DNA of 64,000 bases from Candidatus Planktophila limnetica (GTDB lineage Bacteria > Actinomycetota > Actinomycetes > Nanopelagicales > Nanopelagicaceae). The notes beneath the pieces were generated by a model. The model did no database searches. It was not told the origin of the DNA and saw nothing but the letters and a program-made list of their open reading frames with translations. The DNA lies in NCBI RefSeq assembly GCF_002288365.1, contig NZ_CP016782.1, forward strand, positions 930,001-994,000, read 5' to 3'. This document shows, in pieces, positions 27,107-43,464 of this stretch. The translations under genes and the position numbers were made by a program. Position 1 is the first letter of the stretch. Each line of letters begins with the position of its first letter.

Positions 27107-27130
27107 TACTTTTCTCCTCTGTTATTAAAC

Positions 27131-27154
27131 TTATTAATCAGACGCGATTAATAA
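27131..27154. repeat. AT-rich inverted repeat at the end of the creatininase-family gene
   Basis: TTATTAAT (27131-27138) and ATTAATAA (27147-27154) form a perfect 8-base inverted repeat around an 8-base GC-richer centre. It spans the stop codon region of the upstream gene and precedes the GntR gene by about 25 bases. It could be a weak terminator stem or a protein-binding site; no T-tract follows. Confidence 0.35.
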
Positions 27155-28058: not shown

Positions 28059-28073
28059 CTGGGCTCCTTTGGC

Positions 28074-29306
28074 TTATTTTTCTCGTACGCTGATTAGTGC
28101 TAGAAAACGTTGTGCAACTGCAATACCAAACTCATCAGAGTTAGCATGCAAAGGTAACTTCTCAACTGATATGTCTGAGTTGAGGTTCTTCATAAGCTCT
28201 GTTTCAAATGTTGCATCTGCATCTCTATCCCAGAAAACACCGCCAGGAATATTTGGAATTGAATAACCTTCGCCAGGAATAACAATTTCAATTGGACCTT
28301 TAGCCGTATTGGCACATTCAGCAAAATATGCACCTATCTTGCCCATCTCTTCTCTGGTACAACGAGCAAGCGCGAACTCTGGATTGTGATCATAAATTGG
28401 GCGGTTCTTAAACTCATTTGTTATCGATGTTGTGTGATGCACAGAAAAATCAACACATGCAGGAACAAGTATTTGTGGGATACCAAGTGGGCCTACGCGC
28501 TTCATGCGACGTGGCCCGCCATAGTGAATTCCACCAACGAGAGTTCCAACGATTTCAGATGGCGTGAAATCAATAACGCCTACAAATTGGCCAGCTTCTG
28601 CAAGTTCTTCCATCGCAGGTCCGCCCACGCCATTTGCATGAAATGTGACAACTTCAAATCCTGATTTTTCTAACTCTTTTTGTAGCGCCATCACAGCTGT
28701 TGTTGTGTTACCCAACATGGTGACTGCGACGTACTTACTGCCTTCTGGTGGCACTGTTAATTCGTGACCGTGATTTACAAGTCCTGCCATCGCTGCAACC
28801 GCGTTGTCATAAATTGTCTTTGAAATATGGTTCAAACCTAAAATGTCGATCACTGTATGCATCACCAACATGTCACTTGTTCCAACGAGTGGACCAAATT
28901 CGTGACGACCAGATGCAATTGGAGATAGAACTAATTTTGGAACACCAATGGGCAAACTCATTAGTGCACCGGCTCCCATAACGGAGCCCTCAGCGCCACC
29001 GATACCGATGGCGCCGAGGACCTGTCCCTTGGAATGAAGTTCCGTTACTTTTTTGATTACAAAAGTTCTCATTCGTTCCACTGCGCGCCCGCGAGTTCCA
29101 GAATTCTGTAACTCGTGCAGAGTGATTCCACCAAAGATTGCTAAGTCCTCGTGAGAAATATCAGGAGTAATTCCGAGTGGTTCACCCAGAATTCCCGTAT
29201 CAATCACAGTCGTCTTAATTCCGAGACGGTTTAAGCCATCTCGAATATAAGCCGCTTCAGGACCTTTAGTATCTAAAGTGGCGATGATGAGAACTGATTT
29301 GCTCAC
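28074..29306 (-). CDS. UPF0261 (Tm-1-like ATP-binding) protein
   Basis: A 410-residue protein that matches UPF0261: the start SVLIIATLDTKGPEAAYIRDGL, GIGGAEGSVMGAGALMSLPIG (about 101-121), TSDMLVMHTVIDILGLN and GNTTTAVMAL with a glycine-rich ATP region, then FHANGVGGPAMEEL. Biochemical function is not established; the plant Tm-1 resistance protein carries this domain fused to a TIM-barrel PEP-hydrolase-like domain, and bacteria often encode that partner next door. Here no such partner is seen; instead a creatininase-family gene and a sugar isomerase flank it by 15 and 5 bases. Confidence 0.82.
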   Translation of the reverse strand: MSKSVLIIATLDTKGPEAAYIRDGLNRLGIKTTVIDTGILGEPLGITPDISHEDLAIFGGITLHELQNSGTRGRAVERMRTFVIKKVTELHSKGQVLGAIGIGGAEGSVMGAGALMSLPIGVPKLVLSPIASGRHEFGPLVGTSDMLVMHTVIDILGLNHISKTIYDNAVAAMAGLVNHGHELTVPPEGSKYVAVTMLGNTTTAVMALQKELEKSGFEVVTFHANGVGGPAMEELAEAGQFVGVIDFTPSEIVGTLVGGIHYGGPRRMKRVGPLGIPQILVPACVDFSVHHTTSITNEFKNRPIYDHNPEFALARCTREEMGKIGAYFAECANTAKGPIEIVIPGEGYSIPNIPGGVFWDRDADATFETELMKNLNSDISVEKLPLHANSDEFGIAVAQRFLALISVREK

Positions 29307-29311
29307 GATGA

Positions 29312-30211
29312 TTAAATCAAAGGAAGCAAATGCTTAGCGTTCTCTTCAACCAGCCAGTCATAGAACGATTCTGTAAGAATGTTTGAACCGTGGTCGATGA
29401 TGAACTTAAGTTGTTCTGGACTGATATCCACGTTATCGAAGTTTGTTTCCAAAGCATTCTTATAGTGGTTAGCAGGAGTGCGATCGATTGGAGCAACGAA
29501 CTCTGCTGTGAGTGCGCCGTCATAACCGATGCTCTTGAGTGTTGAAATTACTTTCTTCCAGTCATAATCACCGTGACCTGCAGGCATACGATTGTTATCA
29601 GCAACGTGGAAGTCGGTCAGGCGACCCTTTGTGCTGCGAATTGCTTCGTATAGATCTGCTTCTTCGATGTTGATGTGGAATGCATCAAGACACACACCAC
29701 AATTTGGACCAGTCGCCTCAGCCAGAGCCATTGCTTGTTCAGCTCGGTTAATGAAGTACGTTTCAAAGCGATTAAGTGGCTCAATTGCTAAACGAACTCC
29801 AGCTTTTTCTGAGTGCTCATAAATTTCTTTCATGGACTCAACGGCCCACTTCCACTCTTCGTCGGCAGTCGCATCGGCAACAATCTTTCCAACTGTTGCA
29901 GGCACGATTGTCATTTCATATCCATCGAGTTCTTTAACCATAGTGATGCAGTCTTTTGTGTACTGCACTGACTTGGCGCGCTGTCCGGAATCTGCTGCAA
30001 CGAGATTTCGCTCGCCGAGCATGAGAGTTACAGAACCCCAGCACTTAAGACCATGGTCATCAAGTAATTTCTTGGTGTCCTTACTTCCATTCTGTCCGAA
30101 TTGCTCTGGTTCACCGCTGATCTCGATGCTCTTATAGCCATACTTGGCTAGACGCGCGATTGTCACCTTAATAGGTTCTGCGCGCATCCAGTTATGCATT
30201 GATAGATGCAT
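29312..30211 (-). CDS. Sugar phosphate isomerase/epimerase family TIM-barrel protein (second copy)
   Basis: A 299-residue xylose-isomerase-like TIM barrel. Metal and substrate motifs: RLAIEPLNRFE (about 148-158), GVCLDAFHINIEE (about 180-192), DFHVADNNR (about 211-219) and GALTAEF (about 245-251), the pattern of tagatose/psicose 3-epimerases and hydroxypyruvate isomerase. The open frame extends upstream, but ATG 30211 has GAAAGGAG at five bases and is chosen. It is not a close duplicate of the protein at 19442-20449. Confidence 0.85.
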   Translation of the reverse strand: MHLSMHNWMRAEPIKVTIARLAKYGYKSIEISGEPEQFGQNGSKDTKKLLDDHGLKCWGSVTLMLGERNLVAADSGQRAKSVQYTKDCITMVKELDGYEMTIVPATVGKIVADATADEEWKWAVESMKEIYEHSEKAGVRLAIEPLNRFETYFINRAEQAMALAEATGPNCGVCLDAFHINIEEADLYEAIRSTKGRLTDFHVADNNRMPAGHGDYDWKKVISTLKSIGYDGALTAEFVAPIDRTPANHYKNALETNFDNVDISPEQLKFIIDHGSNILTESFYDWLVEENAKHLLPLI

Positions 30212-30242
30212 GATTCTCCTTTCAAAAAGAATCAGAGGGTTT

Positions 30243-31730
30243 CTAGTAACGCCCGTTCTTCGGAGGTCCGAATCCAAGTTTTCCTGGATTCAGGATTCCG
30301 TCCGGATCCCACGCGTCTTTTACTCCAAGGAGTAAATCAAATGCGGCGCCATGCTGTACTCGCATGAAGCGCCCGAGCTTTAACCCAACACCGTGGTGTT
30401 CATTAAGTGAACCCCCGTTATCGAGGCTGGCCTTAATCGCAGCATCCCAAACTCGGTCGTGAAGAGCAATAGCTTCTTGAGGATCTTCTGGTCCATTATC
30501 AATATAAAAACGATCGTAAATCATTCCGCCCCATGGGAACCAGTGTGAAAAATGTGCGGTGTAGCGCGCTTTGTATTCAGAGAAGCCTTCTTCAATAACT
30601 TTTTTCTTCGCCCAATAAATCTTTTCTAGATCTTCAAAGCGAGCACATGTATCTGTCGTGCCAAAGACCTGCGGTGGCGCAGGAATATTGCCGTGCTTAA
30701 ATGGTTCGTACTTACCGTCCCACCACATCTTGCCGATTTCAGGACCATATGACTTTCCACCAACTGCTTCGCAGAGTTTTGCAATCTCAGAACTTTCAAG
30801 TGCTGTGAGTGCTTTTTTACCATCGCACATGATGATGAGTAATACACCTTCTACGCCCAAGTTAAGCCATGATGAAAGTTTCGCGCTATCTGCTTCATCG
30901 TATAAGCGAATAACTGCTGGACGCCAACGATCTGTCATGATGCGACGGGCAGCTTCGATTCCTTCAGAAATATTTTTAAATCCGTAGGATAAGAACTCCA
31001 TTGACTCTGGGATTCTTTCAATCCGCATAGATGCCTTGGTAATAATTCCAAGTGTTCCTTCAGAGCCAACAATTGCTTGCATAATGCCAGGACCAGATGC
31101 ATGGTTTGGAACTTTCATCGTTTCCACAAGTTTTCCTGGTGGGACGGCTGCTTCTAATTGCAAAACTAGATCTTCTGCTTTTCCATATTTTGTTGAAACA
31201 ACGCCAGATCCGCGAGCTGCTAAATAACCACCGAGTGTTGCACCGAAGTGAAAAGAGCCTGGGTAGTGCGGCATTGTTAAACCTTTAGCGTTAAGAATTT
31301 TCTCAAGCTCTGGTCCTTCAATTCCTGCTTCAGCAGTAACAATCATTGAAACTTCATCAATGTGCAAAACTTTATTGAGTCGGCGAAGATCCATTGCGAT
31401 ACCCCCGTAGATCGCAAATGTTCCACCTTGTGTACCTGAACCACCTCCGCGGGGCACAACTGGAATTTTGTATTCGCATGCAATACGCAAAACTTCTGCG
31501 ACTTCTTCTGCAGTTCCTGGACGAACATAAATATCTGCAGTTGGTACAGGCAAAGACTTGTACTTGAGGTATTGCGAAATCCAAGACCAATCAGCAGATT
31601 GTTCGTGTAACAATGTTTCATCTGTATTTACATTCTCTGGTCCCACAACTGATGCAATCTCACGTTGAACCTGCGCAATTAAATACTGATCACGAATAGT
31701 GCTCTGGTCTAAGTCTCGCTTTTGGTACAC
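30243..31730 (-). CDS. FAD-linked oxidase (GlcD/alkyl-DHAP-synthase-like)
   Basis: A 495-residue flavoprotein with an N-terminal PCMH-type FAD domain (VPRGGGSGTQGG about 86-97; PGSFHFGATLGGYLAARGSGVVS split over 160-182) and a C-terminal FAD-oxidase domain ending in LNEHHGVGLKLGRFM and DPDGILNPGKLG. The family oxidises hydroxy acids or forms ether lipids; the catabolic context supports oxidation of a sugar-derived hydroxy acid. The frame can start at TTG 31775, but that codon is inside the operator, and GTG 31730 has AGGGGG seven bases upstream, so GTG is preferred. First gene of the catabolic block. Confidence 0.82.
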   Translation of the reverse strand: MYQKRDLDQSTIRDQYLIAQVQREIASVVGPENVNTDETLLHEQSADWSWISQYLKYKSLPVPTADIYVRPGTAEEVAEVLRIACEYKIPVVPRGGGSGTQGGTFAIYGGIAMDLRRLNKVLHIDEVSMIVTAEAGIEGPELEKILNAKGLTMPHYPGSFHFGATLGGYLAARGSGVVSTKYGKAEDLVLQLEAAVPPGKLVETMKVPNHASGPGIMQAIVGSEGTLGIITKASMRIERIPESMEFLSYGFKNISEGIEAARRIMTDRWRPAVIRLYDEADSAKLSSWLNLGVEGVLLIIMCDGKKALTALESSEIAKLCEAVGGKSYGPEIGKMWWDGKYEPFKHGNIPAPPQVFGTTDTCARFEDLEKIYWAKKKVIEEGFSEYKARYTAHFSHWFPWGGMIYDRFYIDNGPEDPQEAIALHDRVWDAAIKASLDNGGSLNEHHGVGLKLGRFMRVQHGAAFDLLLGVKDAWDPDGILNPGKLGFGPPKNGRY

Positions 31731-31774
31731 CCGACGCCCCCTTGTTCCCTCATCTACCCTGTCTTCGTATTCCA

Positions 31775-31821
31775 ACTTGTATACAAGTAAGGATGTTATG
31801 TGCCTCTTCCACCCCCGTCAA
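31775..31821 (-). promoter_or_regulatory. Promoter with perfect palindromic GntR operator of the catabolic block
   Basis: On the minus strand TTGACG (31816-31821), a 17-base spacer and TAACAT (31793-31798) make a strong sigma70-type promoter whose transcript start should fall near 31786. ACTTGTATACAAGT (31775-31788), a perfect 14-base palindrome, covers that position. It matches the FadR-type GntR pattern and the elements at 26326-26339 (13 of 14) and 18068-18081 (11 of 14). Confidence 0.68.
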
Positions 31822-31851: not shown

Positions 31852-33237
31852 TTAGGCGAAAATTTTGCCCGGATTTAAGATGCCTTTGGGATCTAAGGCC
31901 TTTTTGATCGAAAGCATGACTGCCATTGAGCCTGGGCCAGCCTCTTTTTCAAGGGATGAAATCTTGCCCGCGCCAATTCCATGCTCGCCCGTGCACGTTC
32001 CACCCATATCAATAATCGCATCAGTCATGTGGTGGGTGAGATCTCTAACTGCAGGTAACTCTTCGGGTTTATTCGGATCAGTAATTATGAAGGCGTGAAA
32101 ATTCCCATCTGCCACGTGACCAAGAATCGAAAATGGAAATGCAGATTGGCTCAGAATTTTCTCAGTGAGCGCAACGGCTTCAGCTAATTTAGATAGCGGC
32201 ACTGCAGCATCTGTACTTATCGCGCGCTTACCTGGATGCGCCGAAATTCCTGCCCAATATGCATTGTGACGTGCTTGCCATAATTTGCGACGAGCGCCTT
32301 CTTCAGATGTCCATTCAAAGTTTGTTCCGCCAAACTCTGCAGCAATTTCTTGAACGACGTGTGCATCCTCCTCAACGCTACGTGGGCTTCCATGAAATTC
32401 AAAGAGCAGCGTTGGAGCTTCTTCTAAATTAAGGCCATCATGGGCATTAACATTTTTTATGCATTGTGCGTCTAGAAATTCGCAGCGAGCAATTGCAACT
32501 CCTGAGCGCACAACTGCAATTGCTGCTTGGACGCCATCTGCCAAAGTTGGAAAGCGTGAGACTGCTGCAGCCATTTTTTCAGGAATGCCAAATACACGAA
32601 GAGTTATCTCCGTAACTATTGCCAAGGTTCCTTCTGATCCAACAATTAAACGTGTGAGGTCATACCCAGCAGATAACTTACGTGTTTCGCGCCCTGTTTC
32701 AATAATTGTTCCATCGGCTAACACCGCGGTTAATTTGAGAACATTTTCTCGCATTGAACCGTAGCGCACAGTTGTAGTGCCTGCTGCACCTGTTGAAGTC
32801 ATTCCACCAATAGTTGCATCAGCGCCAGGATCAACAGAGAAAAACAAACCATCTGATGAAATCTTTTTATTCAGCGCCATGCGCTTTACACCTGCTTGCA
32901 CACGAACAGTTAAATCATCTGGACTTATCTCAAGGATTTTGTCCATAGCGCTGAGATCTAATGAAATGCCACCAAAGAGTGGAAGAACATGGCCTTCCAG
33001 AGATGTTCCTGCGCCAAATGCCACAACTGGAATATCGTGGGAGTTGCAGTACTTTAAAACATCAGAGACTTCTTGCGTTGTGTGAACAGTAATAACTGCA
33101 GATGGCTTCACTGGTGGAAATGCTGATTCATCTCTGCCATGTAAATCTAGAACCGAATCATTTGTTGATATGCGACCATCAACGAGGGCGCCAAGTGCTG
33201 CTATTTGGTCAGTGGTTAGCTCTATACGTGTGCGCAT
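31852..33237 (-). CDS. FAD-linked glycolate/D-lactate dehydrogenase (GlcD-like)
   Basis: A 461-residue two-domain flavoprotein: an FAD-binding PCMH domain (VAFGAGTSLEGHVLP about 72-86; GGMTSTGAAGTTTVRYG about 142-158) and an FAD-oxidase C domain with the metal histidines in ILGHVADGNFHAF (about 370-382) and the catalytic CTGEHGIGAGK (about 415-425). It would oxidise glycolate or D-lactate to the keto acid. No glcE/glcF partners are encoded nearby, so it is a stand-alone type. It is four bases downstream of the SDR gene, i.e. the last gene of the sugar-acid block. Substrate choice is inference. Confidence 0.87.
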   Translation of the reverse strand: MRTRIELTTDQIAALGALVDGRISTNDSVLDLHGRDESAFPPVKPSAVITVHTTQEVSDVLKYCNSHDIPVVAFGAGTSLEGHVLPLFGGISLDLSAMDKILEISPDDLTVRVQAGVKRMALNKKISSDGLFFSVDPGADATIGGMTSTGAAGTTTVRYGSMRENVLKLTAVLADGTIIETGRETRKLSAGYDLTRLIVGSEGTLAIVTEITLRVFGIPEKMAAAVSRFPTLADGVQAAIAVVRSGVAIARCEFLDAQCIKNVNAHDGLNLEEAPTLLFEFHGSPRSVEEDAHVVQEIAAEFGGTNFEWTSEEGARRKLWQARHNAYWAGISAHPGKRAISTDAAVPLSKLAEAVALTEKILSQSAFPFSILGHVADGNFHAFIITDPNKPEELPAVRDLTHHMTDAIIDMGGTCTGEHGIGAGKISSLEKEAGPGSMAVMLSIKKALDPKGILNPGKIFA

Positions 33238-33241
33238 TTTT

Positions 33242-33991
33242 TTACTTAGGCAGGTTCAAACTATGTAGTCCGCCATCAACAGCGAGGACGGTGCCAGTAG
33301 TTGATTTCTGTCCCGGATGCGCTAAATAAATAATTGCATTGGCTACTTCATCTGCGCTAACGAGTCTGCCCATTGGTTGACGCGCTTCAAGTGCTGCACG
33401 TTCTTTTGCAGGATCAGCTGCTTGCGATAACAAGCGACCTATCCATGGAGTTTCAGCTGTTCCAGGATTAACACAATTCACTCTGATTTTTTCTGGAAGC
33501 AAGTCTGCGGCCATTGCAAGGGTGAGTGACAAGATGGCACCTTTGCTTGCGCTATAGATTGCGCGCTTAGGCAGGCCCACAGTTGCAACAACTGAACATG
33601 TATTAACTATTGCTGCATCCGTGCTCTTGCGAAGTAAAGGAAGTGCAGCCGCGCTTACTCGAGATGTGCCAATCACATTTATGTTCAAAACTTTGTTCCA
33701 CTCTTCAGTGGTTGCAGCTTCTACCCCGCCTTGTGCGCCAATACCTGCGTTATTAATGAGCACGTCAATCTTTGAAACTTTGCCTGCAATACTTGCAAAG
33801 GCTTTAGTCACTGATTCATCGCTTCCGATGTCGCACTCAATCCACGTGCCAACACCATCTAACTCCCCGGCGTTTAGATCTAATCCAAAAACTTGCGCGC
33901 CTAGTGCTTTTAGCTTCTTAGCAACGGCCAAACCAATTCCCGAGCCTGCACCTGTAATAACAACGTTAAATCCTTGAAAATCTGTACTCAT
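33242..33991 (-). CDS. Short-chain dehydrogenase/reductase of the sugar-acid cluster
   Basis: A 249-residue classical SDR: TGAGSGIGLAVA cofactor loop (13-24), NNAGIGAQG (about 85-93), catalytic S near 132 and YSASKGA (about 149-155), then PGTAETPW. Complete length. It starts one base from the end of the FAH-family gene. By position it could be the 2-keto-3-deoxy-sugar-acid dehydrogenase that makes the 2,4-diketo acid cut by the FAH-family enzyme; that role is inferred from known L-fucose/L-rhamnose oxidative pathways. Confidence 0.88.
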   Translation of the reverse strand: MSTDFQGFNVVITGAGSGIGLAVAKKLKALGAQVFGLDLNAGELDGVGTWIECDIGSDESVTKAFASIAGKVSKIDVLINNAGIGAQGGVEAATTEEWNKVLNINVIGTSRVSAAALPLLRKSTDAAIVNTCSVVATVGLPKRAIYSASKGAILSLTLAMAADLLPEKIRVNCVNPGTAETPWIGRLLSQAADPAKERAALEARQPMGRLVSADEVANAIIYLAHPGQKSTTGTVLAVDGGLHSLNLPK

Positions 33992-34849
33992 TTACTTTCC
34001 GCCTTTCGAGTAAGCAACGAGCCTAGATTCAATTTCGCCAATTCCTTCGATGCCGGTGCGTAGAACATTTCCCGCACACAGATATTTTGGCGGCTTATAG
34101 CCAAGTCCTACGCCAAAGGGTGTTCCAGTATTAATAATATCTCCTGGGCATAGCTCCATGAATTGGCTGATGTACCAAATAATATGGTTGATTCCAAAGA
34201 GTAGATCATTTGTATTTGAATCTTGACGCATTTGACCATCTACGCTGCACCACAAACGAAGATTAGATCCATTAATTTCATCAGCAGTAACAACACATGG
34301 GCCAATCGGATTAAAAGTTGGGAATGATTTTCCTTTAACCCATTGTCCGGAACGCTCTAATTGCCAATGACGTTCGCTGACATCTTGGCTAATGGAATAA
34401 CCCAAGATATGTTCTGGGGCTTGATCTGGTGACTCCAAATACAGAGCCTTCTTGCCAATCACAATAGCGAGTTCAACTTCATAATCTGTTGCTTCGCTAT
34501 TTGGTGGAATAACAATGTCATCATTTGGACCAACCACACTGTCCGGTGCCTTCATAAAAATAATTGGCTCTTTAGGAGTCTCTGCGTTGGCTTCTTTAAT
34601 ATGTCCCAAATAATTAAGTCCAACGCAAATAACCTTCGTTGGATTTTGAATTGGCGCACCGATTCGACTCTTACCGAGTGGCTCAGAGGCAAGAGCAGAT
34701 AAATCGGCAGCCGCTACCTTGCTGAGGGCACCATTTTCTAATTCACTACGTGACCAATCAGAGATGATTGAATCCACAAAAATTACAGTTTCACCAGAAA
34801 TCACGGCAGCACGTTCTTTTCCAACTGCTCCGATGCGCGCGATTTTCAA
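33992..34849 (-). CDS. FAH-family hydrolase, 2,4-diketo-3-deoxy-sugar-acid hydrolase-like
   Basis: A 285-residue fumarylacetoacetate hydrolase-fold enzyme. The metal site is readable as EVELAIVIG (about 124-132) with D on the YSISQDVSERHWQLE segment (about 152-166), and GQWVKGKSFPTFNPIGP matches the subgroup that cleaves 2,4-diketo-3-deoxy-L-fuconate or L-rhamnonate. Products would be pyruvate plus lactate, or glycolate for a pentose. The neighbours supply lactonase, dehydratase, dehydrogenases and lactate oxidases, consistent with this. Other acylpyruvate substrates remain possible. Confidence 0.85.
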   Translation of the reverse strand: MKIARIGAVGKERAAVISGETVIFVDSIISDWSRSELENGALSKVAAADLSALASEPLGKSRIGAPIQNPTKVICVGLNYLGHIKEANAETPKEPIIFMKAPDSVVGPNDDIVIPPNSEATDYEVELAIVIGKKALYLESPDQAPEHILGYSISQDVSERHWQLERSGQWVKGKSFPTFNPIGPCVVTADEINGSNLRLWCSVDGQMRQDSNTNDLLFGINHIIWYISQFMELCPGDIINTGTPFGVGLGYKPPKYLCAGNVLRTGIEGIGEIESRLVAYSKGGK

Positions 34850-34882
34850 CGATTCAACTCTCTCTTGAAATAACTGATGAAC

Positions 34883-35734
34883 TTAACCATATCGATGTGC
34901 GGGTAGTCCACTTAATCCCGTGCCAGTAACGGCAAGGATTTTTCCTGCTAACCCTTCTTTACTGCGATCAATACCCTGGCTAGCGCTTGTAACAATGAGA
35001 ACATTTCCATCTGTTCCACCAAATGTGCATGATGTTGGCCTGCTTACTCCCAATTCAATCTCTGTTGCTTTTGTGCCATCAGGTTCATAAATTTCGACAC
35101 GTCCACCATCCCACAACGCAACAACAATTTTTCCATCGGAGCTAACTGACATTCCATCTGGAATTCCTTTTGAAGTATCAAAGGTAATTAACTCGATTGG
35201 ATTACTAATACGGCCCTGTACCGAATCAAAATCAAATCTCTTTAGTACTCCTGGAATGCTATCGATGTAATAAAAATAATGAGCATCTGGGCTCCAGCCC
35301 ATTCCATTTGAAAGTGTGCATTTATCTAAAACACTTCTGTAAGAACCATCTTTTTCTAATACGTATAAAGATCCGCGTTCGGCTTCAAATGAAAGTGCGA
35401 GACTGCCTGCCCAGAAACGTCCAACAGGATCAACTTTTCCATCATTCATGCGCATGTCATCTGCAAGAAAAGAGTGCAACTGTGAGAATTTTCCATCGAT
35501 ACCAACAAAGGCAAAACCCTCTTGATTTGCTGCTACGTAATCTCCACCACGGGTGTGAGCAATAGCCCCAACCATTGATGGTGCGCTAAAACTCTGTGTT
35601 GCTCCAGTTTCTATATCTGCGGTGTGAAAAATATTTTGCGTGATATCTGTCCACGTTACGCAATTAGTTTGAGGACTCCAGATTGGGCCTTCACCCAAAT
35701 CAGAAACCACTTCTGAAATCGCTCGAATATTCAT
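34883..35734 (-). CDS. SMP-30/gluconolactonase-family lactonase
   Basis: A 283-residue six-bladed beta-propeller of the SMP-30/regucalcin family. LGEGPIW (12-18) holds the metal glutamate, MNDGKVDPVGRFWAGS the central asparagine region, and LSNGMGWSPD and IPDGMSVSSDGKIVVALWDGG the remaining ligands. Such enzymes hydrolyse sugar lactones made by sugar dehydrogenases. It begins two bases after the stop of the Zn-alcohol dehydrogenase gene, which may supply the lactone. Confidence 0.88.
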   Translation of the reverse strand: MNIRAISEVVSDLGEGPIWSPQTNCVTWTDITQNIFHTADIETGATQSFSAPSMVGAIAHTRGGDYVAANQEGFAFVGIDGKFSQLHSFLADDMRMNDGKVDPVGRFWAGSLALSFEAERGSLYVLEKDGSYRSVLDKCTLSNGMGWSPDAHYFYYIDSIPGVLKRFDFDSVQGRISNPIELITFDTSKGIPDGMSVSSDGKIVVALWDGGRVEIYEPDGTKATEIELGVSRPTSCTFGGTDGNVLIVTSASQGIDRSKEGLAGKILAVTGTGLSGLPAHRYG

Positions 35735-35736
35735 GG

Positions 35737-36753
35737 CTACATAATTCGTGGATCTATATGAACTTTCGGGCCAACTCCAGCACCTTCAATTTTCTTGCCT
35801 GATAGAACATCAGAACTCTTTGATAAACCAACTGTTGCAGCAACGATTGGACGTGGATCAATTTCACCACGTGAATAGAAATCAATGGTTCCTTTTAAAC
35901 CAGGCGATGCTGAGAGAATTCCAACTGCCGTGACATCTTTAAGTACAAGAGATCGACTATCTAGTGTGCTTGGTTCACCTGAAACTCCAATATAAACAAC
36001 ACGTCCGCCCGGTTCTACGCGGGCAAGTGCTTCCGCTGGAATCGCCGCGCTATTTGTGGCATCAATAATGGCATCAAAGCCACCATCTACTTCTTCAAAC
36101 TCTTGTGTAGAAAAATGCACACCTAAATCTTTAGCTAAAGACAGGGTCGCGGGATTGCGACCAACCATATGCACTTCGGCTCCCATTGCTAGAGCAAATT
36201 GCGCGGTAAGCAATCCAATAGTTCCGCTTCCCCACACTAAAACTTTTTTGCCAGGTGCTGCGTGAGCTGCTTGGGCTGATCGCAAAGAGTTCCCGCCAGG
36301 TTCGATGAGTGCGCCAATGGTGTCATCAATGGAATCAGGTAGTTCGTGAAGTGCAAACTCAGGAACTAATAATTGTTCAGCAAGTGCTCCTGGCCATCCA
36401 TTTCTAATTCCGATTTCAAATCTATCGGCACATACATGTTGTAATCCAGATTTGCATCTCTTGCACTTTTGGCATCCCAGCATCGTGTCACCTGTAACAC
36501 GTTTGCCAATCCATTTTTTATCCACACCATCGCCAACAGTTGAAACTGTGCCACACCATTCGTGACCAAGTCGCATCGGATATTTAGCTTCACCTGTTTG
36601 AAAATAAGCCATGTCGCCATTGAAAAATTCAACATCGGTTCCGCATACGCCCGCACGTGCAATATCAATGACAACATGACCTGGCTGTGCAACAGGTGCA
36701 TCAACTTCTTCAATACTTGATTGACCTGGTGAATGAACTACGAATGCCTTCAT
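35737..36753 (-). CDS. Zinc-dependent sugar/polyol alcohol dehydrogenase
   Basis: A 338-residue medium-chain dehydrogenase. The catalytic zinc ligand is in AGVCGTDVEF, GHEWCGTV follows, and the structural zinc loop has four cysteines in CQKCKRCKSGLQHVC (about 98-112). NAD(P)-binding GSGTIGLLTAQ lies near 173-183. The open frame runs upstream into the divergent dehydratase gene, so ATG 36753, which gives the standard MKAFVVHSPG start, is used. It could oxidise L-fucose, a related sugar or a polyol; the specificity is not readable. Confidence 0.87.
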   Translation of the reverse strand: MKAFVVHSPGQSSIEEVDAPVAQPGHVVIDIARAGVCGTDVEFFNGDMAYFQTGEAKYPMRLGHEWCGTVSTVGDGVDKKWIGKRVTGDTMLGCQKCKRCKSGLQHVCADRFEIGIRNGWPGALAEQLLVPEFALHELPDSIDDTIGALIEPGGNSLRSAQAAHAAPGKKVLVWGSGTIGLLTAQFALAMGAEVHMVGRNPATLSLAKDLGVHFSTQEFEEVDGGFDAIIDATNSAAIPAEALARVEPGGRVVYIGVSGEPSTLDSRSLVLKDVTAVGILSASPGLKGTIDFYSRGEIDPRPIVAATVGLSKSSDVLSGKKIEGAGVGPKVHIDPRIM

Positions 36754-36767
36754 AAGAACGCCAATGC

Positions 36768-36803
36768 TAGACGAAGTATTCACAGCACGGCTATGCTCTT
36801 TGA
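36768..36803 (+). promoter_or_regulatory. Promoter giving a probable leaderless dehydratase transcript
   Basis: TAGACG (36768-36773), an 18-base spacer and TATGCT (36792-36797) precede the dehydratase GTG by only six bases, so transcription should begin at or next to the start codon. No Shine-Dalgarno sequence is present. The 50-base divergent region leaves room for little else. The -35 is weak, so this is a reasoned prediction only. Confidence 0.45.
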
Positions 36804-38510
36804 GTGAGAAGTTCGCATTGGTACGCCGGCGACGGTAGAGATGCCTACATTCATCGCGCATGGATGCGCCGCGGTAATCCAGATTCGGCATTCGATGGAC
36901 GTCCGCAGATCGCAATTGTTAATACCGCATCAGACCTTGCACCCTGCAATACGCACTTAGATGAAATTGCGCAGAGTGTGAAAAATGGAATTTGGGAAGC
37001 AGGCGGAGTTCCACTGAACTTGCCAATGATTTCTCTGGGCGAAACACAAGTACGACCAACTGCAATGTTGTGGCGCAACATGGCTGCCATGGCTACAGAA
37101 GAAATGATGCGTGCAAATCCAATTGACGGTGCAGTTTTATTAGGTGGTTGCGACAAAACAATTCCTGCATTGTTGATGGGCGCATCATCAGTTGATCTTC
37201 CTTCAATTGTTGTTCCAGGCGGTCCAATGTTGACCGGAACTTTTAGAGGTTCTCCACTTGGTTGTGGAACTGATGTGTGGCGCATGAGTGAAGAAGTTCG
37301 CGCAGGACTATTAAGTAAAGCTAAATTCTTAGACTCTGAATCAGCAATGATTCGCTCCCGCGGACACTGCAACACAATGGGAACCGCATCCACCATGGGA
37401 ATTATGGCTGAAGCACTCGGAATGACTCTCCCGGGAGTTGCAGGAACACCGGCTGCAGATAGTCGATTACTACAAGCGGCCCATAACACTGGTCGTCGAA
37501 TTGTTGAGATGGTTACAAGTGATCTCAAACCAAGTGATGTTATGACTAAGGCTTCTTTTGAAAATGCAATCCTGGCCCTTGCTGCAATTGGTGGGTCAAC
37601 AAATGCTGTTGTGCATCTGCTAGCAATCGCAGGTCGACTCGGCATAAAACTCAGCCTCGATGATTTTGATCGCATTGGCTCACGAATTCCGCTACTCGTA
37701 AACCTTCAGCCTTCTGGAAAGTTCTTGATGGAAGATTTTTATCGTGCTGGCGGCTTAAGCGCAGTATTTAAACAACTTGAAAAACTTCTCAACCCACAAG
37801 CCATAACGGTTACTGGAAAATCCATCACATCAACAATTGGCGATGGCGAGATTTTTGACTCTGAAGTTATTAAAAGCATTGATGCTCCCCTACAAAAAGA
37901 AGCTGGCATCGCAGTTCTTCGCGGAAATATTGCACCACTTGGTGCGGTCATTAAACCTGCAGCGGCTAGCCCAGCACTACTGAAGCACTCAGGACCTGCA
38001 CTTGTTTTTGAAAGTATCGAAGATTTTCATGCACGTATTGACTCTGACGATTTAGATGTCACCGCAGATTCTGTTTTGGTTCTGCGCGGTTGCGGACCCA
38101 AGGGTTATCCAGGAATGCCAGAAGTTGCCAACATGAAAATTCCAGGAAAATTAGTGGCTCACGGAGTTACTGACATGGTTCGAATTTGCGATGGACGCAT
38201 GAGTGGCACCGCGTATGGAACAGTTATTTTGCACGTTGCACCCGAATCTGCAGCAGGTGGTCCACTTTCAAAGATTCTATCTGGTGACATCATCGAATTA
38301 GATGTTGCAGCTCGCACATTAAATGTGAAGGTTTCAGAATCTGAGCTTGCCGCTCGTAAAGCGTCTGTAGCCACTGAAAATGCATATGCGAATCCAGATC
38401 GCGGATGGCAGAGAATGTATATCGATCACGTCATGCAAGCAGATACAGGTGCAGACCTAGATTTCTTAATTGGTTCTAGCGGCTCTGACGTGACGCGCGA
38501 ATCGCACTAA
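36804..38510 (+). CDS. IlvD/Edd-family sugar-acid dehydratase
   Basis: A 568-residue Fe-S dehydratase. The cluster ligands C48 (LAPCNTH), C116 (GGCDKTIP) and C189 (RGHCNTMG) are present, with K118 as the lysine that is carbamylated in relatives. The start RSSHWYAGD and the length match the L-arabinonate/D-xylonate dehydratase branch better than biosynthetic IlvD. It would convert a sugar acid (fuconate, arabinonate or similar) to the 2-keto-3-deoxy acid. GTG 36804 is the first start codon after an in-frame stop. Its 3' end overlaps the convergent permease gene by 35 bases. Confidence 0.87.
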   Translation: MRSSHWYAGDGRDAYIHRAWMRRGNPDSAFDGRPQIAIVNTASDLAPCNTHLDEIAQSVKNGIWEAGGVPLNLPMISLGETQVRPTAMLWRNMAAMATEEMMRANPIDGAVLLGGCDKTIPALLMGASSVDLPSIVVPGGPMLTGTFRGSPLGCGTDVWRMSEEVRAGLLSKAKFLDSESAMIRSRGHCNTMGTASTMGIMAEALGMTLPGVAGTPAADSRLLQAAHNTGRRIVEMVTSDLKPSDVMTKASFENAILALAAIGGSTNAVVHLLAIAGRLGIKLSLDDFDRIGSRIPLLVNLQPSGKFLMEDFYRAGGLSAVFKQLEKLLNPQAITVTGKSITSTIGDGEIFDSEVIKSIDAPLQKEAGIAVLRGNIAPLGAVIKPAAASPALLKHSGPALVFESIEDFHARIDSDDLDVTADSVLVLRGCGPKGYPGMPEVANMKIPGKLVAHGVTDMVRICDGRMSGTAYGTVILHVAPESAAGGPLSKILSGDIIELDVAARTLNVKVSESELAARKASVATENAYANPDRGWQRMYIDHVMQADTGADLDFLIGSSGSDVTRESH

Positions 38511-39717
38511 ATTTGTGCACTGCAATACCAGCAATTAATCCCCAGAATGGTGAGCCAATGCCCCACCCTGAAACACCAGAAATTGTTACTAAGAAAGTTA
38601 CAACTGCAGAATCTCTAAAGTCTTTTTCCTCAAGTGCATCAGTAAGTGCGGCTGTAATAACTGGCAAGAGTGCAAGGCCAGCAAGAATTGCTGTGAGTTC
38701 AACTGGAAATGCACCGAATAGAGCTGAAAAGATTCCAGCAAAGAGCGCAGCGACACAATAGGCAACACCAGATACAACACCTGCGAAGTAGCGAGTCTTT
38801 GGATTTGGATCACTGTCCGGTGAAATAGCAATTGTTGCTGTCATCGCAGATAAATTAACTCCAGCACCACCGAAGCCAGCGCCTAATAACGACAATGTGC
38901 CACCGAAGTGAACGATTTGATTAACAGGAGCTTTGTAGTGAACCGCCTTGAGCAGGGCAATACCTGGCGCGTTTTGAGTTGTCATCACCACTAAGAAAAT
39001 TGGAATTGTTAGTGTGAATAAAGATCCTAATGAAAATGTTGGGTTTGTCCAGACAGGTGTAACGACTTCAAAATCAAGGGGTGGTACATCAATTTTTGAT
39101 TGTGCAATCACAGTTATTAAACCAACGGCAAATGAAGCCAATACCGGTGCTCGCCACTTAAGAGTCCGTCCAAGGAAGAAAACAGCGAGCATTAACAATC
39201 CCATTAATGGATTAATACGAGTGGATGTAAAGATGCGCGTTCCAAAGGTCAGTAACACACCTGCAAGCATCGCCATAATGATTGCGTGGGGAATAGATTG
39301 CATTAATTTATTGAAAATTCCTGTATACCCGACGATCATCAACAGAATTGAAGCCCCAAAATACGCACCGATAACTTCTGAAAACGGGTGATCTACTAAA
39401 CCTGTAACTAGCAGAGCCGTGGTCGTTGATGCCCAAGAGCCGATAATTGGAATTCCAAAACGAAGAGTGAGCAATAAACCGAAGAGACCAGAACCTAAGA
39501 AAACAGCAAAGAGCCACGAGTTCGTTAACTCAATGGGCAATTTTCCAGCAGCTGCTGCTTGATACAAAATAGCAATAGGCCCAGTGGTAGATACAAAGAC
39601 AACTAGAAATCCAGATAGTAAAGCTGTCCATGATGCTGCTTTAGGTAGATTGCGAAGATTATGTGCGAGTGCTTTAAATAGTGGGAGATCTGTCGTTCCA
39701 GATTCGACCTCAGACAT
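38476..39717 (-). CDS. BenE-type benzoate/anion symporter family permease
   Basis: A 413-residue membrane protein with about 12 hydrophobic segments, matching the BenE family of the nucleobase-type transporter fold: TTGPIAILYQAAAAG (about 44-58), ASTTTALL and TTQNAPGIALLKA with GAGFGGAGVNLSAMTATIA in the middle half. Characterised members move benzoate with protons, but no aromatic catabolism genes are present here. In this cluster it may take up lactate, glycolate or a sugar acid, which is inference. It overlaps the lldD-like start by one base and the convergent dehydratase gene at the 3' end. Confidence 0.83.
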   Translation of the reverse strand: MSEVESGTTDLPLFKALAHNLRNLPKAASWTALLSGFLVVFVSTTGPIAILYQAAAAGKLPIELTNSWLFAVFLGSGLFGLLLTLRFGIPIIGSWASTTTALLVTGLVDHPFSEVIGAYFGASILLMIVGYTGIFNKLMQSIPHAIIMAMLAGVLLTFGTRIFTSTRINPLMGLLMLAVFFLGRTLKWRAPVLASFAVGLITVIAQSKIDVPPLDFEVVTPVWTNPTFSLGSLFTLTIPIFLVVMTTQNAPGIALLKAVHYKAPVNQIVHFGGTLSLLGAGFGGAGVNLSAMTATIAISPDSDPNPKTRYFAGVVSGVAYCVAALFAGIFSALFGAFPVELTAILAGLALLPVITAALTDALEEKDFRDSAVVTFLVTISGVSGWGIGSPFWGLIAGIAVHKFSAIRASRQSR

Positions 39718-40973
39718 TACTTCGCGAATCTATTGATCGTACGAACGTGAGAAGGATTAAGTTCGGATACTGATTTAACACCGAGTAATTTCATAGTGCG
39801 GTAAACCTGAGAACTCAAAATTTCAATTGAGCGATCAACGCCATCTCGTCCACCAGCCATCAAGCCGTACAAATACGCACGACCAATCCATGTGAAGTTT
39901 GCACCATTTGCAAGGGCGGCAACGATGTCGGCACCATGCATGATTCCTGTGTCCATATGAAGTTCGGCTTTCTTACCAATCTTTTTGCGAACCTCTGGAA
40001 GTAATAAAAATGGAACAGGTGCGCGATCTAATTGGCGACCGCCATGGTTAGACAAGATTATTGCGTCGGCTCCGGCGCTAACAGATTTGACTGCATCATC
40101 GACGTTTTGAATTCCCTTAACAACGAGCTTGCCCTTCCAGTTTTTGCGAATCCACTTCAAATCTTCAAAGGTCACTGTTGGATCAAACATTGAATCGAGA
40201 AGTTCTGCCACGGTGCCATTCCATGCGTCCATAGATGCAAACTTCAATGGATCTGTAGTGAGAAAATTAAGCCACCAGGCCGGTCGTGGGATTGCATTTA
40301 AAATTGTCTTAGATGTCAGTGAGGGTGGGATTGTCATTCCGTTTCGCACATCGCGAAGTCGAGCACCAGCAACTGGTACATCTACAGTTAAAACAAGAGT
40401 GTCAAAGCCTGCAGCTTTTGCACGATCGACTAGTGCCATTGAACGATCGCGGTCTTTCCACATATATAACTGGAACCAATTACGCCCATGGGGTGCTGCA
40501 GCAGCAACATCTTCAATTGAACGCGTACCCATAGTTGAAAGCGTGTAAGGAATCCCGGCATCGGCAGCAGCTGTACACCCTGCGATTTCGCCTTCGGTCT
40601 GCATCATGCGAGTAAATCCTGTTGGAGCGATTCCAAATGGTAATGAGTGCTTGCGACCGAGCATCGTTACGGATGCATCAACCTTTGAAACATCGCGCAA
40701 TACATTTGGAATAAATTCGATCTCTTCAAAAGTTTTACGTGCACGAGTCAAACTAATCTCTTGATCTGCAGATCCATCGGTGTAATCAAATGGGGCTTGT
40801 GGAGTGCGGCGTTTAGCAATCGCTCGAAGATCATAAATTGTGAGCGCGCGAGTGAGTCTGCGCTTTTTTGCACTAAAGATTGGCTTTCTAAACTTTAGGA
40901 GTGCTGCAAGATCGCCGATATGAGGAATGCGGCGCTTAACTTTTACTCTAGTTCTAGAACCAGATTGAGCCAT
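39717..40973 (-). CDS. lldD: FMN-dependent L-lactate/alpha-hydroxy-acid dehydrogenase
   Basis: A 418-residue FMN TIM barrel. [14 protein letters not shown], the histidine/arginine pair in [14 protein letters not shown] (about 299-312, catalytic histidine) and [18 protein letters not shown] (about 341-358) are the family signature. LldD oxidises L-lactate to pyruvate with electrons to the respiratory chain; glycolate or another hydroxy acid is possible. It would finish the lactate formed by the diketo-acid hydrolase encoded upstream. AAGGAGAGG lies eight bases before the ATG. It overlaps the permease gene. Confidence 0.88.
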
Positions 40974-41222: not shown

Positions 41223-42686
41223 TTAGAGCGTTAACGACGCTGCAATACGCGCCAGCGATACCTCTTTACCAAGTAACTCCATTGATTCAAATAGCGGTGG
41301 AGAAATTGTGCTGCCAGTAGTTGCAATACGAATTGCGGTAAATGCAATGCGTGGCTTGAGTCCCATCTCTTCGATCAAGCTTGCACGAAGTGCTGCTTCG
41401 ATGCTGTCATGGTTCCACGTTGCTAGTGGCTCTAATTCTTTCAGTGAGCGCTTAAGAACATCTTTTGAAACTTGATCGGCGATTTTTGAAACGCTCTCTG
41501 CTTCCACCTCAAATTTTTTCACAAATAGAAATTTCAGCATCTGCGGAACTTCATCGAGTTTAACGATGCGCTCTTGAATAATTGGAAGGGCAGCCTTTAC
41601 TAATGCGACTTCGCTATCGGTGCCTGTAATGATGCCTGCTTTTGTTAAAAATGGAAGTGACCACTTCAAAAACTCATCCAGTGTCAAGGCACGGATCTTG
41701 TCTCCATTGATTGCTTCGAGTTTTTTCATATCAAAGCGAGCAGGTGAAGAGTGAACCTTTTCAACTGTGAATAGTTCGCACAGCTCTTTCATCGTGATGT
41801 TTTCACGATCATCTCCCGGTGACCAACCCAACAGTGCTAAATAATTACAGATTGCCTCAGGCAAATAACCTTGCTCGCGATACCACGCGATTGAAACTTC
41901 GCCGTTTCGCTTAGATAGCTTTGCGTTGTCTTGTCCCATGACAAATGGCAAGTGAGCAAAGACTGGATAATCATCGGTCTTAACACCCATCGCTTGATAC
42001 ACGCGAATCTGACGTGGTGTCGATGAGAGTAAGTCTTCCCCACGTAATACGTGTGTGACCTTCATCAAAACATCATCGACTGCAACTGCAAGTGTGTAGA
42101 GCGGTGAACCATCTGCGCGAACTAAAACAAAGTCAGGGACAAACTTGTGATCAAAGGCTACTTCACCGCGAATTTCATCAACAAAAGTTGTTGATCCATC
42201 TGGCATGCGCATACGCACGACAGCTTCGCGACCTTCAGCCTTGTAAGCAGCTACTTGTTCTGCAGTTAAATCGCGGCACTTTCCGTCATAACCAGGTGCA
42301 ACATTGGCAGCGCGTTGTGCTTCACGAGTCGCTTCTAACTCAGCGGGTGTGCAATAGCAGTGATAGGCATCTTTTTGATCTAGAAATGTTTGTGCCCACT
42401 TCGCATAAATATCTAAACGTTGTGATTGCAGGTATGGGCCGTTGTCTCCACCAACTTCTGGACCCTCATCCCAATTGAGTCCAAGCCACTTGAGCGTATC
42501 TATCGCTGCTTGAATATATTCATCTGTTACGCGAGTGGTATCTGTATCTTCAATGCGAAAAAGAAATGTTCCGCCTGTATGACGTGCATATGCCCAATCA
42601 AATAAAGCAGTGCGAATATTTCCAACGTGTAGATCACCAGTTGGCGACGGTGCGAAACGTACCTTTACTTTTTTAGCCACGCGCAC
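41223..42686 (-). CDS. gltX: Glutamyl-tRNA synthetase
   Basis: A 487-residue class I synthetase. The HIGH-type motif is in APSPTGDLHVGN (12-23), the KMSKS-type motif in NAKLSKRNG (about 247-255), and FRIEDTDTTR binds the tRNA end. It charges tRNA-Glu and, in actinobacteria without a glutaminyl enzyme, usually also tRNA-Gln for later amidation by GatCAB; both tRNA genes follow. It starts at GTG 42686, overlapping the FAH-family gene by 14 bases; a second GTG two codons later is possible. Confidence 0.95.
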   Translation of the reverse strand: MRVAKKVKVRFAPSPTGDLHVGNIRTALFDWAYARHTGGTFLFRIEDTDTTRVTDEYIQAAIDTLKWLGLNWDEGPEVGGDNGPYLQSQRLDIYAKWAQTFLDQKDAYHCYCTPAELEATREAQRAANVAPGYDGKCRDLTAEQVAAYKAEGREAVVRMRMPDGSTTFVDEIRGEVAFDHKFVPDFVLVRADGSPLYTLAVAVDDVLMKVTHVLRGEDLLSSTPRQIRVYQAMGVKTDDYPVFAHLPFVMGQDNAKLSKRNGEVSIAWYREQGYLPEAICNYLALLGWSPGDDRENITMKELCELFTVEKVHSSPARFDMKKLEAINGDKIRALTLDEFLKWSLPFLTKAGIITGTDSEVALVKAALPIIQERIVKLDEVPQMLKFLFVKKFEVEAESVSKIADQVSKDVLKRSLKELEPLATWNHDSIEAALRASLIEEMGLKPRIAFTAIRIATTGSTISPPLFESMELLGKEVSLARIAASLTL

Positions 42687-43464
42687 TCACTCGATTCGTT
42701 AACTCGCCTAAACCTTCGATGGCAACAGTAACGCTTCCTTGAGGTTGTATTGGTCCAATGCCCGCTGGCGTTCCGGTAAGAATTACATCGCCAGGTAACA
42801 GAGTCATTACTTGAGAAACAAATTGCACAATTTCGGCAACTCCAAAGATCATCTGATTCAAATGCGCGTCCTGCTTTAATTCATTATTCACCGTTGCCGT
42901 AATTCGTTGTGTGCCCGGGATGAAATCTGTGTCAATCCAAGGGCCAAGTGGACAGAATGTGTCAAAGCCTTTTGCACGGCTCCACTGACCATCTTTTTTC
43001 TGCAAATCACGAGCAGTTACATCATTAGCAACTGTGTAACCAAAAATAACATCGTTAACTCGCTCGCGTGGAACATCTTTACAAATTCGACCAATAACAA
43101 TTGCTAATTCAGCTTCATGATCTACTCGTTCTGACATGGCTGGCCAGACGATTGTGTCGTTAGGTCCGATGACAGATGTATTTGGTTTTAGGAAAATTAT
43201 CGGTTCACTTGGAACTTCTGAACCCATCTCGGCTGCATGGTCTGCATAATTCTTTCCAATGCAGACAACTTTGCTCCGTGGGATAACTGGGGCGAGCAAG
43301 CGAACATCAGATAACTGTGTGACTGCTCCAGTTTTGCTCACGCCAGCATAAATAGGATCTCCAGCGATTACTGAGATATTTGTTCCGTCTTCTTCGAGCA
43401 GACCAAAGAGAGGATCAGTACCTAATCCAGAGTTTGGTCCAGGAGAAAAACGAACAATTCGCAT
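42673..43464 (-). CDS. FAH-family hydrolase/isomerase beside gltX
   Basis: A 263-residue fumarylacetoacetate hydrolase-fold protein with VCIGKNYADHAAEMG (about 68-82), DHEAELAIVIG (about 117-127) with metal glutamates, GYTVANDVTARDLQ and GDVILTGTPAGIGP. Actinobacteria, including mycobacteria, commonly carry this gene directly upstream of gltX, and its in vivo substrate is not clear. Only distantly similar to the FAH protein at 33992-34849. Confidence 0.87.
   Translation of the reverse strand: MRIVRFSPGPNSGLGTDPLFGLLEEDGTNISVIAGDPIYAGVSKTGAVTQLSDVRLLAPVIPRSKVVCIGKNYADHAAEMGSEVPSEPIIFLKPNTSVIGPNDTIVWPAMSERVDHEAELAIVIGRICKDVPRERVNDVIFGYTVANDVTARDLQKKDGQWSRAKGFDTFCPLGPWIDTDFIPGTQRITATVNNELKQDAHLNQMIFGVAEIVQFVSQVMTLLPGDVILTGTPAGIGPIQPQGSVTVAIEGLGELTNRVSARG

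Follow-up and report, generated by a model that had tools for sequence, protein, structure and literature searches.

A putative route III aldose cassette beside a UPF0261/Liv-transporter island in Candidatus Planktophila limnetica

Closest described pathways

A non-phosphorylative route III for D-xylose in Herbaspirillum seropedicae was reportedly presented by Malan in 2021. In H. huttiense, route III for pentoses was described to combine an SDR 4-dehydrogenase with a FAH-type hydrolase, which together lead to pyruvate and glycolate, while IlvD/Edd dehydratases serve both D-xylonate and L-arabinonate (PMC6336799). A related non-phosphorylative pathway, composed of FucA, B, C, F and G, has been described for L-fucose (PMC11199699).

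The window analysed here is a stretch of 64,000 nucleotides from Candidatus Planktophila limnetica, a lake bacterium with a small genome, and the gene set at positions 31852-38510 is of this known kind. On balance, we consider it probable that the cassette encodes the oxidative, non-phosphorylative route III for an aldose, with the D-xylo/D-gluco configuration more likely, and that it has been inserted in a separate island. Like the H. huttiense route (PMC6336799), it carries a 4-dehydrogenase-type SDR together with a FAH-type enzyme, whereas its first enzyme is Zn-dependent, its genes form a single cassette and its SDR is type-2-like (R-T-W-R). Drawing on protein families, motifs, FAH and IlvD trees and synteny, we infer all reactions described below, as well as the sugar, the products and the direction of insertion. 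In streamlined freshwater actinobacteria, gene lists often serve as the basis for assigning carbohydrate genes. In the present case, comparison with relatives that have or lack each part indicates that what looks like one pathway consists of two units, and that a pathway tail can be common to fucose-type and aldonate-type heads; the focal question is the C2/C3 configuration accepted by the dehydratase.

Gene content and proposed reactions

A Zn-dependent medium-chain dehydrogenase (35737 to about 36753, minus strand; PF08240/PF00107), the start of which is set at MKAFVVHSPGQ although the mechanical ORF extends to 36915, is a putative aldose 1-dehydrogenase that would convert the aldose to its aldonolactone, and an SMP-30 family sugar lactonase (34883-35734, minus strand; PF08450, 234.9 bits; best solved relative, regucalcin) would open the lactone. 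The IlvD/Edd sugar-acid dehydratase (36804-38510, plus strand; NF004784, 843 bits, cut-off 539) would turn the aldonate into a 2-keto-3-deoxy acid, whose 4-hydroxyl group would be oxidised by an SDR (33242-33991, minus strand; best solved structure 4DQX), a putative 2-keto-3-deoxy-sugar-acid 4-dehydrogenase by its residue pattern. Subsequently, a FAH-family enzyme carrying His83 and Glu86 (33992-34849, minus strand), for which the best solved structure is the L-2,4-diketo-3-deoxyrhamnonate hydrolase 8GSR, may act as 2,4-diketo-3-deoxy acid hydrolase and release pyruvate and a 2-hydroxy acid. With D-xylose as first choice, D-xylonate would yield pyruvate and glycolate, the latter passing to the GlcD-like FAD-linked oxidase (31852-33237, minus strand; PF02913/PF01565 in the profile search). 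The five enzymes, from Zn-dehydrogenase to FAH protein, support the non-phosphorylative pathway type that an earlier note had proposed for this DNA, and open reading frames and profile searches recovered every gene which that note had named, at its position and in its family. Its gene list was nevertheless incomplete, as a BenE-family transporter (38476-39717, minus strand; TIGR00843, 326 bits, cut-off 203.4; PF03594) had been missed.

The claim that gene order agrees with the pathway was overstated, because the dehydratase is encoded on the other strand, which makes gene order depart from reaction order, and because FAH is transcribed before the SDR. The Zn-dehydrogenase and the dehydratase are separated by a divergent intergenic region of 50 bp (36754-36803), and the dehydratase starts with GTG, immediately 5' of which stands an in-frame TGA. 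This divergent pairing recurs in several genomes of the family, and among the 80 best IlvD loci of a GTDB contig scan the Zn-dehydrogenase is present in 43 and FAH in 23. In the Streptomyces locus L132 the two are paired about 0.9 kb apart, and locus L133 has no other reference gene near its IlvD match; both loci are unannotated.

Both product oxidases of the cluster had been taken as users of the cleavage products, and this holds plausibly for one of them. The GlcD-like oxidase scores 331.7 bits against TIGR00387 (GlcD), under the cut-off of 567.9. Its homologues at 81-84% identity directly adjoin gltX in nine loci examined, all lacking the cassette, and no match at E 1e-120 was found in the cassette-bearing genome G138. 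Despite this cassette-free occurrence, it lies about 4 kb from the Zn-dehydrogenase or IlvD in three other genomes and therefore stays a plausible partner, as candidate consumer of glycolate or D-lactate from the hydrolase. The LldD-like FMN-dependent 2-hydroxy-acid dehydrogenase (39717-40973, minus strand; PF01070, 433 bits) meets the FMN_dh family, scores 268.4 bits against NF033901 (LldD; cut-off 550) and is the sole match in its genome; the argument that its presence reflects use of the product is not supported, since the island to which it seems to belong also occurs where the sugar genes are absent.

The UPF0261/Liv-transporter island

The minus-strand run extends beyond the interval as far as 19442, and profile searches place at 19442-31775, all on the minus strand, a TIM barrel, Gfo/Idh, a LivFGKMH ABC transporter, GntR, a creatininase-like protein, UPF0261, a second TIM barrel and an FAD oxidase (FADox2). 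The Liv substrate-binding protein lies at 23118-24350. LldD and BenE seem to belong with these genes in a separate 14-gene island and not to the cassette, because the island stands without sugar genes in G043, a genome of another genus; in locus L260 BenE adjoins FADox2 and LldD and the cassette is absent. The cassette sits between FADox2 and BenE in the window, in G177 (L053) and in G138 (L056), and it would have been inserted into the island, the alternative being its loss from G043. A relative of FADox2 (44.6% identity) is found in Mesorhizobium near a xylulokinase gene.

It is also conceivable, although we regard it as quite unlikely, that cassette and island form one pathway, in which a sugar conjugate would enter through the Liv-type transporter, its aldose would be freed or converted by the UPF0261, creatininase-like, TIM-barrel and Gfo/Idh proteins and then degraded by the cassette, and LldD or GlcD would oxidise the hydroxy acid. 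This is favoured by the position of a route III cassette beside a rare island (UPF0261 at at least 77% identity in 9/296 family genomes) in two arrangements with different dehydratases, one in the window's own genome (G000), G177 and G138 and the other in G150, and it is disfavoured by the island standing alone in G043. If it were true, bacterial UPF0261 proteins would gain a pathway role; a literature search on UPF0261, covering titles and abstract openings, returned nothing on a bacterial function. Annotated plasmid neighbourhoods were also considered for the function of the island, UPF0261 adjoining a Liv-type transporter in Thermomicrobium and a sugar transporter with a beta-L-arabinofuranosidase-domain gene in Qingshengfaniella, and were dropped, as no single substrate emerges. 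An inositol route (IolM/IolN/IolO), drawn from the Zn-dehydrogenase, creatininase and TIM-barrel matches, was abandoned because all of these fall far below the cut-offs.

Dehydratase type and the likely sugar

The dehydratase is supported as a sugar-acid enzyme and not a biosynthetic IlvD. It scores 440 bits against TIGR00110 (biosynthetic IlvD; cut-off 618), a separate ilvD exists in the same genome, and its solved relatives are 8EJ0, 5J83 and 9EVV. By the earlier note's own criterion, a grouping with biosynthetic IlvD in a genome lacking any other ilvD would have spoken against its reading, and this is not what is observed. Its C-terminus reads TRESH, with the final histidine kept in 91 of 93 aligned rows, whereas the second IlvD, which exceeds the TIGR00110 cut-off, ends in G and has no C-terminal histidine. 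According to PMC11316719, this histidine enters the active site of the neighbouring subunit in IlvD/Edd sugar-acid dehydratases. The window enzyme resembles the L-arabinonate dehydratase of Rhizobium leguminosarum (5J84/9EVV, PMC11316719) in family, C-terminal histidine and a match of about 690 bits, but falls below the L-arabinonate dehydratase model PRK13016 (793.1 bits, cut-off 882). Three matches of 94-95% identity to the window IlvD were found, one named Planktophila and one labelled acI-Phila.

The sugar is more likely D-xylo/D-gluco configured, with D-xylose as first choice, than L-fucose or D-arabinose, as such acids would best fit both the C2/C3 substrates of IlvD/Edd enzymes and the putative 4(S) type of the SDR. 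The assignment to L-fucose or D-arabinose in the earlier note is not supported, given the dehydratase family with its reported substrates, a lactonase that is SMP-30 and not COG3618, and the lack of an enolase-type dehydratase match. The IlvD/Edd enzyme RlArDHT is reported to act on L-arabinonate, D-fuconate, D-galactonate, D-gluconate and D-xylonate (PMC11316719), and the IlvD/Edd activities considered here are on acids whose C2/C3 configuration is opposite to that of L-fuconate and D-arabinonate. The SDR carries R143-T178-W183-R204 with S133-Y146-K150. Set beside the R-T-Y-R carboxylate-ligand pattern (with Ser-Tyr-Lys) of type 2 L-KDF dehydrogenases (PMC11199699), R, T and the last R are present, and the third putative ligand is W, not Y, as in 34/36 aligned rows selected for an identity of about 50% and above. 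The described L-KDF dehydrogenase favours acids with a 4(S)-hydroxyl group, namely L-KDF, L-KDGal, D-KDP and D-KDGlu (PMC11199699 Table 1), though it is just 17-fold better on D-KDP than on 4(R) L-KDP, and just 2-fold on D-KDGlu. The preferred D-xylo/D-gluco substrate is judged from relatives, and besides these modest ratios and the W ligand, two points count against it: the C4 configuration favoured by RlArDHT is the opposite one (kcat/Km 19 for D-xylonate, 68 for D-gluconate, 570 for L-arabinonate and 4400 for D-fuconate; PMC11316719), and the genome holds an actinobacterial xylose isomerase scoring over its cut-off, so that a D-xylose cassette would be redundant.

An unlikely rival is route III for L-fucose or D-arabinose, with an IlvD/Edd enzyme of altered C2/C3 specificity, products pyruvate and L-lactate, and LldD oxidising the lactate. 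The window FAH falls in a 44-row clade (support 100/99) together with fucose-type and LldD loci, and the SDR is 63-71% identical to SDRs of loci with an enolase dehydratase, an AKR and a COG3618-like lactonase, some also with LldD. On the preferred reading too, FAH is of the same lineage as the L-fucose-type loci of the family, as its tree shows, and judging from its identity the SDR probably is as well. LldD lies near FAH in 24/43 rows of this clade against 1/55 outside, which suggests an L-lactate product, and it is in the same neighbourhood here; as many of these genomes are incomplete and related, Fisher values for such co-occurrence and neighbour counts overstate significance. LldD is also present in all five other cassette or island genomes covered to that end (G177, G138, G129, G175, G150), and the enolase dehydratase is found in none of six window-type genomes (hand-compiled; G171 known from a 3.1-kb contig only). 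Against this, LldD and BenE are accounted for by the island, and the IlvD/Edd activities considered include none on L-fuconate or D-arabinonate. Compared with the described L-fucose pathway (PMC11199699), SMP-30 here replaces the COG3618 FucB and the Zn-dehydrogenase replaces FucA, and the genome has no FucC match, in that the enolase-type dehydratase (query, L057 protein) gave none at E 1e-120, a threshold passed in 88/296 family genomes. That protein is called fuconate dehydratase by its 53-56% identity to a Martelella CDS so annotated; among NCBIfam models it matches different ones, with scores far below cut-off. Moreover, by hand-compiled genome lists with the FAH group set by motif or 68% identity, a close IlvD is retained in 17 of the 26 genomes that carry both the enolase dehydratase and a group-1 FAH, and a simple replacement of one dehydratase by the other was dropped because many genomes hold both.

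About as improbable are other aldonates, namely 6-deoxy-D-gluco acids (giving D-lactate), D-gluconate (giving D-glycerate) or, if the SDR were lax at C4, L-arabinonate, D-galactonate and D-fuconate. These lie within the range reported for RlArDHT or share its C2/C3 configuration (PMC11316719), an IlvD of 73% identity adjoins a KDPGal aldolase-like gene (c25) in L164 and L186, and another of 59.5% lies in an annotated Ruegeria galactonate cluster. However, with 4(R) L-KDP the L-KDF dehydrogenase performs about 200-fold worse than with L-KDF, if just 17-fold worse than with D-KDP (PMC11199699), and TIGR00045, which represents one glycerate kinase family, has no match in the genome and matches in 5/14 controls, which disfavours glycerate; a hexonate route III ending in glycerate was demoted to a rival on this ground.

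Very improbable is a Weimberg-like route II with FAH as 2-keto-3-deoxy acid dehydratase, for although an MhpD-type FAH protein is a KDP dehydratase in H. huttiense (PMC6336799) and a KGSADH-like aldehyde dehydrogenase lies near 24/55 FAH rows outside the window's clade, it lies near none of 43 rows within it, and a 4-dehydrogenase-type SDR adjoins FAH here. The diketo-deoxy-acid hydrolase pattern noted earlier is present, the His83/Glu86 pair being the same as in C785_RS20550 (PMC6336799), yet HxxE occurs in all 100 aligned FAH rows, including those beside aldehyde dehydrogenases, and therefore does not separate hydrolase from dehydratase. Against its best NCBIfam model, NF053535 (2,4-diketo-3-deoxy-L-rhamnonate hydrolase), FAH scores 260.9 bits, under the cut-off of 500. 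Among the 80 best IlvD loci, 6 have GH78-like genes (assigned by eye) in their vicinity, which would fit L-rhamnose and counts against the preferred sugar.

Gene inventory and the dehydratase

The window (bases 930001-994000 of a one-contig genome of 1.33 Mb, completeness 99.76%) contains every enzyme named in the earlier note, as open reading frames with family profile matches; the genes are real and apparently intact, and the pathway is of an already known kind. The cassette (31852-38510) carries, on the minus strand, a GlcD-like oxidase, an SDR, an FAH-family hydrolase, an SMP-30 lactonase and a Zn-dehydrogenase, from which a plus-strand IlvD/Edd dehydratase diverges with about 50 bp between them. 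The proposed agreement between gene order and reaction order was overstated, since the FAH gene is upstream of the SDR gene on the transcribed strand and the dehydratase lies on the opposite one. A BenE-family transporter gene (38476-39717, minus strand), inside the interval, had not been listed, and the minus-strand run extends on to 19442. As well, genes at 1150-17337, named by eye from translations, encode corrinoid-protein, MetF-like, pterin-binding methyltransferase, ASKHA activator, DUF1638, formate dehydrogenase, FTHFS, ETF and dimethylglycine-dehydrogenase-like products, a set resembling a C1 module for methylated amines, which would be unusual in a 1.3 Mb genome.

The dehydratase scores 843 bits with the PRK06131 model (cut-off 539), 440 bits with the biosynthetic ilvD model (below its cut-off of 618) and 793 bits with the L-arabinonate dehydratase model, whose cut-off of 882 it does not reach. 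Its C-terminal residue is His, described in the excerpted text of PMC11316719 as fully conserved across the sugar-acid dehydratase subfamily and found in 91 of 93 aligned IlvD rows (90 different). The second IlvD of this genome, one of the two rows without it, passes TIGR00110 (691.8 bits against 618.15 for the stretch given). Therefore, the dehydratase does not group with biosynthetic IlvD in a genome devoid of another ilvD, a case named beforehand as refuting the pathway.

A composite cluster

The cassette adjoins an island of fourteen UPF0261, creatininase-like, TIM-barrel, Gfo/Idh, Liv-transporter, FAD-oxidase, BenE and LldD genes (19442-31775 and 38476-40973; also L260), whose UPF0261 gene (at least 77% identity) occurs in 9 of 296 family genomes. 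In G043, a genome of another genus, the order is unbroken: TIM barrel, Gfo/Idh, LivF-G-K-M-H, GntR, creatininase-like, UPF0261, TIM barrel, FAD oxidase, BenE and LldD, with no sugar genes within the island and no FAH, Zn-dehydrogenase or IlvD match in the genome (81% complete) at the limits used. The cassette lies between FAD oxidase and BenE in the window genome, G177 (L053) and G138 (L056), while in G150 a cassette stands at the other island end, adjoining the first TIM barrel, with a different IlvD (54%), SMP-30 (32%) and FAH subclade, and with the Liv genes absent between Gfo/Idh and GntR. The islands of G042, G022, G129 and G175 are visible in part, up to contig ends. We conclude that the cluster is composite, with LldD and BenE as island members; alternatively, G043 may have lost the cassette. 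The match between pathway products and oxidases that the earlier note pointed out is thus partly better explained by neighbourhood. What stands of that reading is a known kind of pathway with its enzymes present, while neither the particular sugar nor the fit of the products is established.

Of 135 genomes of the genus, 30 have a match to the GlcD-like gene, with none in the cassette-bearing G138 (76% complete; both E 1e-120). At nine fetched loci that lack the cassette, this gene directly adjoins gltX, and it lies about 4 kb from Zn-dehydrogenase or IlvD in G210, G230 and G236.

Proposed hydrolase and dehydrogenase, and candidate sugar

The window FAH carries His83 and Glu86, the numbers given to the His/Glu pair of the Herbaspirillum hydrolase in the excerpt of PMC6336799, and the pair is not decisive because it is present in all 100 aligned FAH rows. 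At E 1e-50, 131 of 296 family genomes have an FAH match, a few of them via weaker paralogues alone, and gene order was examined at 99 of the matched places (stretches up to 19.9 kb). In the tree, the window FAH belongs to a 44-row clade (support 100/99). Within eight genes, LldD accompanies 24 of 43 other clade rows vs 1 of 55 outside, and a KGSADH-like aldehyde dehydrogenase 0 of 43 vs 24 of 55, counts that leave out the second window FAH and whose p values are overstated by relatedness of rows; IlvD is equally near in three of the 43 (L053, L056, L095). That second FAH-family gene (42673-43464), outside the cassette, is at best 39% identical to the tree rows and adjoins gltX, as in its relatives. 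In other genus members (L042, L043, L104, L116 and similar), a group-2 FAH lies beside glycerate kinase (L042: TIGR00045, 383 bits), at some loci beside GlcD-like, which could be a non-phosphorylative route (route III) ending in pyruvate and glycerate.

By sugar stereochemistry, D-xylonate, D-gluconate, L-arabinonate, D-galactonate and D-fuconate have the same configuration at C2/C3, and L-fuconate and D-arabinonate have the opposite one. According to the excerpted PMC11316719, a Rhizobium enzyme acts on these five aldonates, with kcat/Km of 570, 930 and 4400 for L-arabinonate, D-galactonate and D-fuconate and poor values for D-xylonate (19) and D-gluconate (68). The best solved relative of the window SDR is 4DQX, placed by the available part of PMC11199699 near type 2 L-KDF dehydrogenases with the pattern R-T-Y-R; the window SDR has R143-T178-W183-R204, plus S133-Y146-K150. 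The W recurs in 34 of 36 SDR rows, including L-fucose-type and actinobacterial IlvD loci; the other two are L107, with F, and the truncated L139. Some rows are one gene fetched twice, and the conservation is partly expected as rows were picked by identity. For L-KDF dehydrogenase, the same paper reports a preference for 4(S) substrates (kcat/Km: L-KDF 7900, L-KDGal 1480, D-KDP 641, D-KDGlu 75) over 4(R) L-KDP (37).

The cassette probably encodes a non-phosphorylative pathway with a 4-dehydrogenase and a diketo-acid hydrolase (route III). D-xylo- or D-gluco-configured acids would be the simplest fit, because the C2/C3 configuration accepted by the dehydratase relative and the 4(S) preference of the SDR relative intersect there. 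However, a second D-xylose route would duplicate the actinobacterial xylose isomerase of this genome (658.5 bits vs 447), the lineage of the FAH gene suggests L-lactate, and near 6 of the best 80 of 585 IlvD loci there are GH78-like genes (identified by eye and afterwards sought with phmmer), which would fit rhamnose; a D-xylo-type sugar is therefore suggested tentatively, and route and sugar taken together are favoured with modest confidence.

Related loci in and beyond the family

One locus type (L057, L062, L068, L085, L093) combines an enolase dehydratase, an aldo/keto reductase, a COG3618-like lactonase (NF052480, 143.8 bits, below 400), an SDR and FAH, with LldD in addition at L057 and L062. 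We named it L-fucose-type because its dehydratase shares 53-56% identity with a CDS labelled L-fuconate dehydratase; this CDS belongs to an annotated cluster of Martelella, whose FAH gene is 49.6% identical to that of the cassette. The enolase dehydratase occurs in 88 of 296 family genomes, with no match in the window genome (both E 1e-120). Among 41 non-window-type genomes that share the FAH group of the cassette, 17 combine the enolase dehydratase with a close IlvD, 9 have the enolase type only, 6 the IlvD only and 9 neither; therefore, a close IlvD does not in general replace the enolase dehydratase. L035 (554-10651), L129, L173 and L208 carry enolase-type and IlvD-type dehydratases with an FAH protein that by eye is COG3970-like, and L035 and L173 an aldehyde dehydrogenase as well, which reads as two adjacent sugar-acid routes.

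A GTDB contig scan with the dehydratase alignment gave 585 relatives, of which the best 80, mostly Actinomycetota by record title, include four loci of the window's type. Clustering of open reading frames at these best 80 found at least 43 Zn-dehydrogenases, 25 IclR-like regulators, 23 FAH and 19 SMP-30 genes (plus 4 in a second cluster), many loci ending at contig ends, and the module is thus widespread among Actinomycetota. Where an oxidase was seen beside it, a long GlcD-type one (at least 14) was more frequent than LldD (at least 5, four of them window-type), and this speaks for glycolate or a D-hydroxy acid as product. Five MAG records titled Bifidobacterium breve (L143, L144, L145, L165, L170) have IlvD grouping with freshwater actinobacterial ones, and their titles look wrong.
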